In this document: piece after piece, positions 35,977-38,931 of the stretch
How the letters are laid out: each line of letters begins with the position of its first letter
How positions within the stretch are numbered: position 1 is the first letter of the stretch
Source of the DNA: Pandoraea fibrosis
Lineage (GTDB): Bacteria > Pseudomonadota > Gammaproteobacteria > Burkholderiales > Burkholderiaceae
DNA: 64,000 nt
Assembly: GCF_000807775.2 (NCBI RefSeq)
Contig: NZ_CP047385.1
Coordinates: 4,092,001 to 4,156,000 of the forward strand
Reading direction: 5' to 3'
The notes under the pieces: generated by a model
Seen by the model: only the letters and a program-made list of their open reading frames with translations
Told to the model about the DNA's origin: nothing
The model's database searches: none
Program-made: the position numbers and the translations under genes

Positions 35977-37164
35977 TCAGCTCACGAAACCACGCAGCAG
36001 GTCGGCCTGAATGTCGGCCGGCGACTCCAGCCCCACTGCCAGACGAATCAGACCTTCCGTAATACCCGCCGCGGCACGCGCTTCCGGCGTGATGCGGCCA
36101 TGCGTCGTGCTGGCCGGGTGCGTGATCGTGGTGCGCGTGTCGCCGAGATTGCCCGTGATCGAACACACGCGGGTGTTGTCGATCACGCGCCAGGCGTTCT
36201 CGCGTTGCTCGGCAGGCGTCGCGCCCTTGAGTTCAAACGCGACAATGGCACCGCCCGCCTTCTGCTGGCGTTGAGCGAGTTCGTACTGCGGATGCGACGG
36301 CAGACCCGGGTAGAACACGCGGGCCACTTGCGGTTGCTGTTCCAGCCATTGCGCAATCGCGAGGGCATTGGCCGATTGACGCTCGATACGCAGCGACAGC
36401 GTCTCCATGCCTTTGAGCAACACCCAGGCGTTGAACGCCGAGAGGGTCGGACCCGCGCTGCGCACGAACGTGAAGACCTTGCCCATGATGAAGTCCTTCT
36501 TGCCGACGATGGCGCCGCCGAGCACGCGCCCCTGACCGTCAAGGTACTTCGTGGCGGAGTGCACGACGACGTCCGCCCCGTACTCGATGGGACGCTGCAA
36601 TGCCGGCGTACAGAAGCAGTTGTCGACGACGAACATCGCGCCCGCTTCCTTCGCGATCTTGCCAATGGCGGCGATGTCGGCGATATCCGTGAGCGGGTTG
36701 GACGGCGTTTCCAGGAAGAACATCTTCGTATTCGGACGAATCGCGGCGCGCCAGGCGTCGAGATCGGTCGGGTCGACGAAGGTGGTCTCGACACCGAAGC
36801 GGCTGAAGATCGTGGAGAAGACGTTCAGCGTGGAGCCGAAAATGCTTTGCGAGCTGACGAGGTGATCGCCTGCGGAAAGCGCTGACATCACGACGGAAAC
36901 GATGGCACTCATGCCCGAAGAGGTCGCCATGCAGGCCTCACCGCCTTCGAGGGCGGCCAGACGATCCTGAAACATCGACACGGTCGGGTTGGTGAAGCGC
37001 GAGTAGGTGAAGCCCTCCTCCGAATGCGCGAAGCGTTCGGCGGCCTCGGCCGCGCTCTTGAAGACAAAGCTCGAGGTCAGGTAAAGCGCCTCGGAATGCT
37101 CACCAAACTCGGAGCGCTGCGTGCCCGCGCGCACCGCCAGGGTATCGAAGTCGAAGGAGTCCAT
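35977..37164 (-). CDS. metZ: O-succinylhomoserine sulfhydrylase
   Basis: 395 residues from ATG 37164 ([21 protein letters not shown]). A Cys/Met-metabolism PLP enzyme that makes homocysteine directly from O-succinylhomoserine and sulfide. PLP lysine is in [18 protein letters not shown]; other family segments are [21 protein letters not shown] and [14 protein letters not shown]. Upstream lie, in order, a promoter, a SAM-II-like aptamer and a terminator hairpin, so expression is probably switched off when SAM is plentiful. hisC follows 14 bases later. Confidence 0.94.
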
Positions 37165-37202
37165 CGTGTATCTCGTGATTGGGTTGGCCCGACCGCCGGC
37201 CA

Positions 37203-37242
37203 AAAAAAGAAAAGCCCGTTTCGCTGTTCAGCAAAACGGGCT
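37203..37242 (-). terminator. Terminator hairpin between the SAM aptamer and metZ
   Basis: On the minus strand AGCCCGTTTTGC pairs with GCGAAACGGGCT (37213-37242, loop TGAACA) and is followed by TTTCTTTTTTTG. It stands between the riboswitch-like aptamer and the metZ start at 37164, so it can serve as the aptamer's expression platform as well as the end of purF transcripts. Confidence 0.85.
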
Positions 37243-37258
37243 CGAAATCCATCTGTCT

Positions 37259-37324
37259 AGGCCTCGCTTTAGCTGTTTCGGGGATGTTCCCCCACGTCCG
37301 CAAGCTGAAATCAAATCGACGTGA
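37259..37324 (-). promoter_or_regulatory. SAM-II-class riboswitch aptamer in the metZ leader
   Basis: On the minus strand a perfect stem CACGTC (37318-37323) with GACGTG (37293-37298) encloses GATTTGA (37311-37317) and GCTTGC (37300-37305). After the stem come a small GGGG/CCCC hairpin insert and GAAACAGCTAAAGCGAGG (37262-37279). The conserved SAM-II pieces, GAUUUGA or GAUUUAA in the loop, UUGC before the closing strand, and the AAA...AGCUAAA pseudoknot strand, are all in the right order. It sits at the likely transcription start and in front of a terminator and metZ, a known kind of SAM-II target. Identification is by eye; no covariance search was run. Confidence 0.75.
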
Positions 37325-37329
37325 GAAGC

Positions 37330-37358
37330 AGTGTAGCACGTTGCAGGCGCGCAGGGAA
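37330..37358 (-). promoter_or_regulatory. Likely promoter of the metZ leader
   Basis: On the minus strand TACACT (37330-37335) and TTCCCT (37353-37358) are 17 bases apart. A start about 7 bases downstream would fall at the first stem base of the SAM-II-like aptamer near 37323, which supports the assignment. The -35 box is weak. Confidence 0.5.
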
Positions 37359-37410: not shown

Positions 37411-38931
37411 TCAGAGGCCAAGCTGAGCCCCGCGCGGCTCATTTTCGTCGCCTTCGCCGGATTCCACCACGGGGGCCTTCGGCGCCTTGCGCTGCTGCTC
37501 CAGACGGTTGAGGTACTCGGTCGTCACATCGCCCGTGATGTACTTCCCGTCGAAGCACGACGCATCGAAATCGGTCAGCGCCGGGTTGATGTCGCGCACG
37601 GCAGCCTTCATGTCCTCGACGTCCTGATAAATCAGTTCGTCGGCACCGATGATGCGCGCCACTTCCTCGTCGGTACGATCGTGGGCCACCAGTTCGCTAC
37701 GCGTGGGCATGTCGATGCCGTACACGTTCGGGAACTTCACCGGCGGCGCCGCCGACGCGAAGATCACCTTGCGCGCACCGGCGTCGCGTGCCATCTGCAC
37801 GATTTCCTGGCTGGTCGTGCCGCGCACGATCGAGTCGTCCACGATCAGCACGTTCTTGTCCTTGAACTCGACGCGCATGGCGTTGAGCTTCTGACGTACC
37901 GATTTCTTGCGCATCGCCTGGCCGGGCATGATGAAGGTGCGGCCGACATAGCGGTTCTTGAAGAAGCCTTCGCGATAGTTCAGGCCCAGTCGCTTGGCGA
38001 CCTGCATCGCGGCCGGACGGCTCGAATCCGGAATCGGCATCACGACGTCGATGTCCTGATAGTCGATCTCGCGGCGGATCTTCTCGGCGAGGTAATCGCC
38101 CATGCGCAGACGCGCGTCGTAGACCGCCACGCCGTCGAGCACCGAATCCGGACGCGCCAGATACACCAGTTCGAAAATGCACGGGTGCAACGAGACCGAC
38201 TCCGAGCACTGTTGCGAGACCAGTTCGCCATCGTTGCTGATGAAGACCGCTTCCCCCGGCTTGACGTCGCGCTCGAACGCGAAGCCCATGCCTTCCAAGG
38301 CCACCGACTCCGACGCCACCATCCACTCCGTGCCGTTCGGGCCATCGAAACGGCCGATACACAGCGGACGGATACCGTTCGGGTCGCGGAACGCGAGCAG
38401 GCCGAAGCCGGAGATGATCGAGACGATGGCATACGAGCCGCGCAGACGGCCATGCACCTTGCCCACCGCTTCGAACAGCGACGCGACACTCAGACCATCG
38501 CGCGCGCTCTGCTGCAATTCGTGTGCGAGCACGTTGAGCAGCACTTCCGAGTCCGAGGTGGTGTTGATGTGGCGACGGTCGACGCGGAACATCTCGTCCT
38601 TGAGCTGCTCCCAGTTCGTCAGGTTGCCGTTGTGCGCGAGCACGATGCCGTAAGGCGCATTCACGTAGAACGGCTGGGCTTGTGCGGCGCTCGACGACCC
38701 GGCCGTCGGGTAACGCACCTGACCGATACCGACCGTGCCCGGCAAGTCGCGCATGTTGCGCGTGCGGAACACGTCGCGCACCATGCCGTTGCCCTTGTGC
38801 ATGTAGAACGACTGGCCGTCCGTCGTGGCGATACCGGCAGCGTCCTGCCCACGGTGCTGCAACAGCAGCAGGCTATCGTAGATGAACTGGTTGACAGGGG
38901 ATTTGGAGACTACACCGACGATGCCACACAT
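37411..38931 (-). CDS. purF: Amidophosphoribosyltransferase
   Basis: 506 residues. PurF makes phosphoribosylamine from PRPP and glutamine, the first step of purine synthesis. The Ntn glutaminase nucleophile is Cys2 (MCGIVGVVSKSPVNQF), with HRGQDAAGIAT nearby. The phosphoribosyltransferase domain has the PRPP loop NVLIVDDSIVRGTTSQEIV. The C-terminal tail (QRKAPKAPVVESGEGDENEP) is charged. Follows cvpA by 55 bases on the same strand, the same pairing as in E. coli (cvpA-purF). Confidence 0.97.
   Translation of the reverse strand: MCGIVGVVSKSPVNQFIYDSLLLLQHRGQDAAGIATTDGQSFYMHKGNGMVRDVFRTRNMRDLPGTVGIGQVRYPTAGSSSAAQAQPFYVNAPYGIVLAHNGNLTNWEQLKDEMFRVDRRHINTTSDSEVLLNVLAHELQQSARDGLSVASLFEAVGKVHGRLRGSYAIVSIISGFGLLAFRDPNGIRPLCIGRFDGPNGTEWMVASESVALEGMGFAFERDVKPGEAVFISNDGELVSQQCSESVSLHPCIFELVYLARPDSVLDGVAVYDARLRMGDYLAEKIRREIDYQDIDVVMPIPDSSRPAAMQVAKRLGLNYREGFFKNRYVGRTFIMPGQAMRKKSVRQKLNAMRVEFKDKNVLIVDDSIVRGTTSQEIVQMARDAGARKVIFASAAPPVKFPNVYGIDMPTRSELVAHDRTDEEVARIIGADELIYQDVEDMKAAVRDINPALTDFDASCFDGKYITGDVTTEYLNRLEQQRKAPKAPVVESGEGDENEPRGAQLGL

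Follow-up and report, generated by a model that had tools for sequence, protein, structure and literature searches.

A SAM-II-like leader RNA with an extra hairpin upstream of metZ in Pandoraea fibrosis

Background

What might the RNA transcribed ahead of metZ in Pandoraea fibrosis sense, and to which strand does its structure belong? The window analysed here, a stretch of 64,000 nucleotides, codes on its minus strand for metZ, the O-succinylhomoserine sulfhydrylase (35977..37164, ATG at 37164; NF006003, 727.8 bits against a cut-off of 522), and for its upstream neighbour purF (37411..38931, same strand), with the leader lying between the two. An earlier note on this DNA had read the leader as a promoter, an aptamer of the SAM-II class and a terminator. 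By direct reading all the sequence elements that it named are present in the order given, at 37358-37202 of the minus strand and directly upstream of metZ. Sequence comparisons make it very probable that this RNA senses SAM and shuts the gene off, as a riboswitch of the SAM-II kind that carries an extra hairpin.

Results and discussion

Architecture of the leader

The promoter region includes a -10 element, TACACT, in the extended form TGcTACACT (37335-37330, minus strand), which would place the transcription start at about the first base of P1. The -10 is conserved in most of the 28 leaders of the genus that were compared. Other -10 forms occur at the same place in relatives, and two of these (L100 and L107) have a near-consensus promoter there, TTGACG-17-TAACAT. 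The -35-like TTCCCT (37358-37353, minus strand) is weak, with three of six consensus bases, and a scan with a consensus promoter found no site at the metZ leader. Thus, of the -35/-10 pair that had been proposed, the -10 and the promoter position are credible, given its conservation in the genus and the equivalent promoters of L100 and L107, whereas the -35 assignment is not. Upstream of the -10 in Burkholderia-type relatives, such as L081 and L086, the expected -35 region is overlapped by an inverted repeat rich in GC, which Rfam family RF02424 also shows as a stem; it could be an operator or a part of the purF end.

The aptamer, on the minus strand throughout, opens with the P1 5' strand CACGUC (DNA CACGTC, 37323-37318), followed by L1, GAUUUGA (DNA GATTTGA, 37317-37311), the putative third strand of the SAM pocket, which covers the positions of G8 and U10-U12 of 2QWY. 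The P2 pseudoknot 5' strand CAGCUUGC (DNA CAGCTTGC) spans 37307-37300, and the next base, a G at 37299 ('position 24'), is the partner of C 37275 in the pair that closes the pseudoknot. The P1 3' strand GACGUG (DNA GACGTG, 37298-37293) completes a perfect 6-bp P1. Directly from its 3' end rises the P3 hairpin GGGGAACAUCCCC (DNA GGGGAACATCCCC, 37292-37280), recognised by folding and by the rule given below, as an insert in L3. The following DNA, GAAACAGCTAAAG (37279-37267; GAAAC-A-GCTAAAG), holds the A-rich L3 remainder GAAACA (37279-37274), which by analogy with SAM-II and SAM-V is expected to run along the P1 minor groove, and the P2 3' strand GCUAAAG (37273-37267), the probable SAM contact strand. 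The 5.59-Mb genome has a single occurrence of the pattern GATTTGA..TTGC..GCTAAAG (reversed control, none), and the fold of the leader transcript has a z-score of -3.1.

Relationship to SAM-II

The check that the earlier note had proposed for its class assignment, a covariance-model search with the SAM-II and SAM-V families, formally went against it. The Rfam SAM-II model RF00521 (SAM_alpha) matches the metZ leader with 13.4 bits over half its length (cut-off 36), SAM-V (Rfam RF01826) has no match in the window up to E = 10, and at gathering thresholds Rfam calls neither family there. Alignment A1 comprises 82 distinct cores from 88 candidates (core length 41-45). The covariance model R1 draws on 82 elements, all from families of the order other than Burkholderiaceae. 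R1 matches the metZ leader with 36.0 bits (E 7.6e-9), and its next match in the window has 14 bits (E 0.022). It finds all 20 tested leaders of other Burkholderiaceae members, though in five the match is confined to positions 5-36 of the 62. The cut-off of RF00521 is reached by none of the same 20 Burkholderiaceae elements, and by seven of 20 elements without P3 from other families of the order, 13 being missed; both sets of 20 loci were picked by hand for spread. As so few elements pass in either set and R1 finds all of the former, Rfam's miss looks like a failure of sensitivity.

R1 also has matches in 135 of 274 genomes of the host's class and in 57 of 249 genomes across the phylum. At the R1 site of 11 among 14 loci sampled from other classes, Rfam SAM_alpha also matches above its cut-off, with 56-67 bits; in the same comparison one of six class- or order-level loci passes. 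As R1 matches both this leader and Rfam-level SAM-II elements of other classes, the Burkholderiales elements and recognised SAM-II are bridged both ways. Five pairs of full-length R1 matches lie within about 200 bases of one another (G477:C37:37945-38119, G605:C2:3187051-3187218, G444:C2:263695-263868, G567:C81:6477-6650 and G481:C1:47880-48064), which suggests tandem SAM-II elements in other orders of the class.

The bases of the SAM pocket, namely G8, U10-U12, U20, U21, G22, C23 and G42-A47 in 2QWY numbering, are all present by position. They include those of the base triples U11-A45-U21 and U12-A46-U20 described for SAM-II (PMC3764141). Since the pocket bases are identical to those of SAM-II, the metZ leader would be expected to bind SAM. 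The leader further shares with SAM-II (RF00521, PDB 2QWY) P1, the L1 sequence GAUUUGA, the putative UUGC/GCUAAAG pseudoknot and the 24-40 pair, and likewise a promoter just before P1, a terminator after P2 and an association with methionine genes. It differs in its P3 within L3, in its low score with the Rfam model, and in an L3 remainder of GAAACA in place of about 11 bases.

Phyletic distribution, gene context and covariation

The earlier note had called this betaproteobacterial case with its extra hairpin notable. The occurrence of SAM-II in beta-proteobacteria is not notable in itself, as it is already known: Bordetella bronchiseptica is named in the legend of the SAM-II alignment of Corbino et al. 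2005, and the core pattern occurs in 100 of the 200 sampled genomes of Burkholderiales (reversed control, 1 of 200). In Burkholderiaceae it occurs in 63 of 150 genomes (reversed control, 3 of 150), and within the genus the metZ leader is present in 31 of 32 genomes, as is a leader before metX, with the 1.2-Mb genome G003 as the sole exception in both cases.

The elements are strongly associated with methionine genes: 185 of 211 distinct elements lie within 1500 bases before metZ-like genes (121), metX (39), metH (19) or metK (6), and 26 have none of these four within that distance. Nine pattern rows that by eye are unlike the core (G051, G078, G108, G120, G152, G171 and G195 from the order; G320 and G354 from the family) were left out, and counting them as non-met elements would give 185 of 220. 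Also left out were G273, G281 and the genus row of G024, the other same-genus rows being taken from a separate search of the genus. Three of the 'metZ' rows (L114, L178 and L181) are only 34-38% identical to the MetZ of this locus and may be other enzymes of its fold. A further group of SAM-II-like elements (L002, L039-L043, L045-L050 and L116) precedes no met gene and stands instead before a frame that by eye resembles efflux transporters of the MATE family; the one such protein searched, downstream of L046, matches TIGR00797 with 180.5 bits (cut-off 147.4). A MATE-like exporter is thus possibly under SAM control.

Covariation supports the helices to different degrees. Across 162 distinct elements, 915 of the 972 P1 cells are paired, a count that does not exceed 846 when strands are re-dealt or 598 when they are slid; among the exchanges, U-A replaces C-G 49 times and A-U replaces G-C 18 times. 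Over the whole structure of the 82 elements from other families, 21 cells have changed on both sides, where shuffles give 5.5 and none of 500 reaches that count, and the share of paired cells is 96.4% (94.2% shuffled, at most 56.1% slid); two weaker measures were reached by 10 and 38 of 500 shuffles. The pseudoknot-closing pair 24-40 is kept in 184 of the 185 met-associated elements, as G-C, C-G (three times), A-U (once) or G-U, a count that none of 2000 shuffles equals; in the 26 non-met elements it is kept in 19, no better than shuffled. Barrick and Breaker 2007 (PMC2258182) had already predicted such a closing pair in general terms. P2 itself, formed by the 3' end of L1 with GCUAAAG, is complementary and conserved, but its core pairs UUGC/GCUAAAG are invariant, in alignment A1 as elsewhere, and imposed by the search pattern, and thus give no evidence from covariation; only 24-40 covaries. 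Of the outer P2 pairs, 18-49 is lost in 17 of the 82 elements and 19-48 in 4. Compensatory changes in relatives that broke the pseudoknot and core would have spoken against the class, and what is found is that P1 and the closing pair stay paired through such changes. On the R1 match, the kept pocket bases, the covariation of P1 and the closing pair, and the met genes downstream, the SAM-II assignment of the earlier note stands, with the element as a variant of that class.

The P3 hairpin

The class described from crystal structures with a hairpin at this place is SAM-V, in which a P3 stem-loop arises from the 3' end of P1 and is followed by adenines stacking towards the P1 minor groove, while P3 is described as absent in SAM-II (PMC6061858). 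The small extra hairpin of the metZ leader occupies the SAM-V P3 position, and it is therefore the notable part of this element; since SAM-II is described without it, we file the leader as a SAM-II variant.

By a rule that requires at least three pairs, at most -3 kcal/mol and a first pair no more than one base after P1, 30 of 37 distinct Burkholderiaceae metZ elements have P3 (8.1% of shuffled loops), while in other families P3 is present in 17 of the 24 elements with a long loop (22.3% of shuffled loops); none of 84 short-loop elements has it. A length of 11 bases prevails for the loop from P1 to the P2 3' strand in elements without P3, with 63 of the 90 short loops having it. The loop sequences nearly all differ, with 33 distinct among the 37 Burkholderiaceae metZ elements. 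The 17 other-family elements with P3 span eight families, and copies without P3 sometimes occur in the same genome.

The hairpin raises the alternative of a SAM-V riboswitch, or of some distinct class, with a ligand of its own, whose likeness to SAM-II arose by convergence. In SAM-V, too, P1 leads straight into P3 and an A stack comes next, SAM-II is said to be without P3 (PMC6061858), and the leader shares with SAM-V the pseudoknot core and adenines that are expected to lie towards the P1 minor groove. Yet no SAM-V match appears even at the permissive E-value used above, the same core recurs in relatives with and without P3, sometimes in one genome (G139 has three copies, one of them with P3), and the expression platform is a terminator instead of an occluded Shine-Dalgarno sequence. 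Occlusion of the Shine-Dalgarno by the pseudoknot, a trait of SAM-V, is absent at this locus: the metZ start is at 37164, GCUAAAG ends at 37267, and the terminator lies between. The host is also a member of Burkholderiaceae and not a marine bacterium. We regard SAM-V identity or convergence as highly improbable. As far as sequence can tell, the variant combines the core of SAM-II and the kind of terminator that many SAM-II elements have with a P3 of the SAM-V type. In it P3 would stack at the end of P1 and leave the A-rich strand for the minor groove, as in SAM-V.

For a broader picture our belief and doubt are about evenly balanced. It holds that Burkholderiales harbour a large and mostly unannotated body of SAM-II elements, in which P3 may have arisen repeatedly at the 3' end of P1. 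The P3-bearing forms would then bridge SAM-II and SAM-V, and P3 would be an evolvable add-on to one pseudoknot core that tunes folding or affinity and does not define a class. The orphan metXZ and RF02424 elements discussed below would thereby be explained. The P3-bearing variant, if real, would also open to test the idea that SAM-II and SAM-V form a single class that gains and loses P3.

Terminator and predicted switch

The terminator hairpin that had been proposed between aptamer and metZ is confirmed by the terminator rule and by folding: an intrinsic terminator (37202..37243, minus strand) with a hairpin at 37243-37212, a 14-pair stem and a T-run, the U tract of the RNA, to 37202. The full transcript folds into P1, P3 and this terminator. 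A strict rule places a terminator after 96 of 167 distinct elements, where shuffles would give 7.6; these include all 16 distinct elements of the genus in that set. By the same rule 31 of 52 Burkholderiaceae metZ leaders have a terminator and the other 21 have none.

In the centroid fold of a transcript truncated before the 3' arm of the terminator, CAGC-AAAGCG-GGC of the antiterminator 5' strand CAGCUAAAGCGAGGC (37275-37261, minus strand), which overlaps the P2 3' strand, pairs with GCC-CGUUUU-GCUG of GCCCGUUUUGCUG (37241-37229, minus strand), which is the 5' arm of the terminator. This predicted antiterminator has 13 pairs with two single bulges, an energy of -17.4 kcal/mol, and involves six of the seven bases of GCUAAAG; the overall fold of the truncated transcript is no more stable than that of shuffled sequences (z -1.07, equalled by 28 of 200). 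Across 80 distinct elements, pairing between the region of the P2 3' strand and the terminator arm has a mean of -12.1 kcal/mol, against -8.7 for shuffled arms (0 of 200 as low) and -11.2 for arms exchanged between elements (0 of 500 as low). The signal belongs to the set as a whole: the pairing surpasses 95% of an element's own shuffles in only 28 of the 80, at least four of the seven GCUAAAG bases take part in only 37 of the 80 best duplexes, and within Burkholderiaceae exchanged arms (-13.34) pair as well as an element's own (-13.26). The whole aptamer, mostly through UUGCGGGC of P1/P2 and the GC-rich P1 strand, was considered as the antiterminator and rejected, as its mean of -12.7 against -13.8 permuted and -12.1 shuffled gives no signal.

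A different account of the hairpin at 37243-37212 is that it only terminates the upstream purF unit, with the aptamer acting on translation or not at all. The end of purF lies about 170 bases upstream on the same strand, 71 of the 167 elements have no terminator by rule, and some copies in the order may be translational (the ATG of L003, whose start is uncertain, is described below). Against this, terminators also follow aptamers before metX and metH as well as metZ, over the whole set the arm complements the region of the aptamer 3' strand more than chance would give, and the metZ start lies about 100 bases downstream of GCUAAAG. This makes a purF terminator very unlikely as the whole explanation, and the reading that we prefer is a switch between two pairings of the GCUAAAG strand.

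According to this switch model, when SAM is scarce CAGCUAAAGCGAGGC would pair with the terminator 5' arm GCCCGUUUUGCUG, and RNA polymerase would read into metZ. When SAM is plentiful, GCUAAAG would be locked in the P2 pseudoknot with CAGCUUGC and with L1 GAUUUGA around SAM; the terminator arm would then be free to fold with its own partner, and transcription would stop at the U tract before metZ. With two alternative places for GCUAAAG in this leader, the SAM-bound pseudoknot and the antiterminator, the arrangement corresponds to an OFF switch. Both alternative folds are available in the sequence; SAM binding, the switch itself and what P3 does are predictions. An experimental parallel is the metZ leader of Sinorhizobium meliloti, likewise a SAM-II element before metZ with a predicted SAM-induced terminator, where high SAM raised the leader sRNA RZ and lowered the read-through mRNA, and where promoter activity also fell under high SAM (PMC9373788). 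It differs in coming from an alpha-proteobacterium, and P3 goes unmentioned in the accessible part of that account.

The opposite-strand family RF02424 and the metXZ element

Another Rfam family matches this locus on the other strand: RF02424 (Bp2_287), typed as an sRNA gene, matches 37209..37352 of the plus strand with 63.2 bits (cut-off 70), and it exceeds its cut-off in 16 of the 20 Burkholderiaceae relatives, at 72.9-201.6 bits. Bp2_287 was a candidate of a B. pseudomallei sRNA screen and is listed there as validated by RT-PCR (PMC3521395). These matches and that validation would suit a small RNA gene on the plus strand, antisense to the metZ leader, as Rfam and the screen classify it. However, the conserved opening A-run of RF02424 is the terminator U tract read backwards, and the terminator reads on the metZ strand. 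Helix cells read on that strand contain 50 G.U against 5 A.C, which indicates that the structure most likely belongs to the metZ strand; the test is a modest one, as the outermost P1 pair accounts for 45 of the 50 G.U, which leaves 5 against 0 for the pairs further in. The authors of the screen had themselves suggested a cis-acting element for methionine metabolism, and the accessible text gives the RT-PCR validation without a statement of strand-specific detection (PMC3521395). An independent antisense sRNA gene thus has a very small probability in our estimate. RF02424, 'Burkholderia sRNA Bp2_287', is the SAM-II-like metZ leader with its terminator, taken from the other strand of the same locus.

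A second orphan is the metXZ element, described by Leyn et al. 2014 as a novel beta-proteobacterial element with a pseudoknot and a terminator, in a study that reports SAM_alpha only in Rhizobiales and Rhodobacterales (PMC4239095). Its taxa, its genes metX and metZ, its topology of pairing between regions 1-4 and 2-6, and its terminator with U tract all agree with the leader described here; it differs in having been published with no ligand named in the accessible text, and as one copy per genome, mostly before metXW (PMC4239095). On this fit of taxa, genes and topology, taken from the text description, it is probably the same element. A 2015 survey of B. cenocepacia leaders with Rfam reported SAH and sucA motifs, with SAM-II going unmentioned in the accessible text (PMC4603805). 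In a search for start-site or strand data on a Burkholderia metZ leader, 'metZ' was absent from the main text of that paper and of PMC5688073, and the accessible parts of PMC4035088 and PMC12452182 contain nothing on the element. Within the open-access literature searched, mostly as listings, the P3-bearing variant, the GCUAAAG antiterminator pairing in these leaders and the SAM-II identity of RF02424, and probably of metXZ, appear as new, all as computational results. If they are true, a ligand and a mechanism are supplied for an RNA element reported without one across beta-proteobacteria, a mis-stranded Rfam family is corrected, and a gap in riboswitch annotation is filled in the genomes of Burkholderia, Paraburkholderia, Cupriavidus and Pandoraea.

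A second element before metX

The genome holds a second SAM-II-like element (G000:C1:310102-310192; L351 1503-1593) before metX, the homoserine O-succinyltransferase gene (NF047916, 666.6 bits). It reads GGCGCGCC-GATTTGG...CTTGCG-GGCGCGC, followed by a long P3 with GAATG/CATTC ends and then by AAAAATGC-G-GCTAAAG, with GATTTGG as its L1 against GATTTGA in the metZ leader. Two weak matches at 310100 and 310162 had raised the possibility of tandem switches; the DNA shows a single element with a long P3 before metX. By eye, the adjoining sequence after this element has no terminator with a T-run. If the assignment is true, metX and metZ, which code for both steps from homoserine to homocysteine, are under the same kind of switch in this genome.

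The alignment of metX leaders covers 17 of 30 loci, the remaining 13 being in the other orientation and left out, and in it two leaders (L406 and L408) show a compensated change at the P3 ends, to GAGTG/CACTC. In three other metX copies (L003, L031 and L034) an in-frame ATG, whose status as the true start is uncertain, follows GCTAAAG after four bases, with AAAGAGAA before the ATG; this arrangement might be a translational version of the switch.
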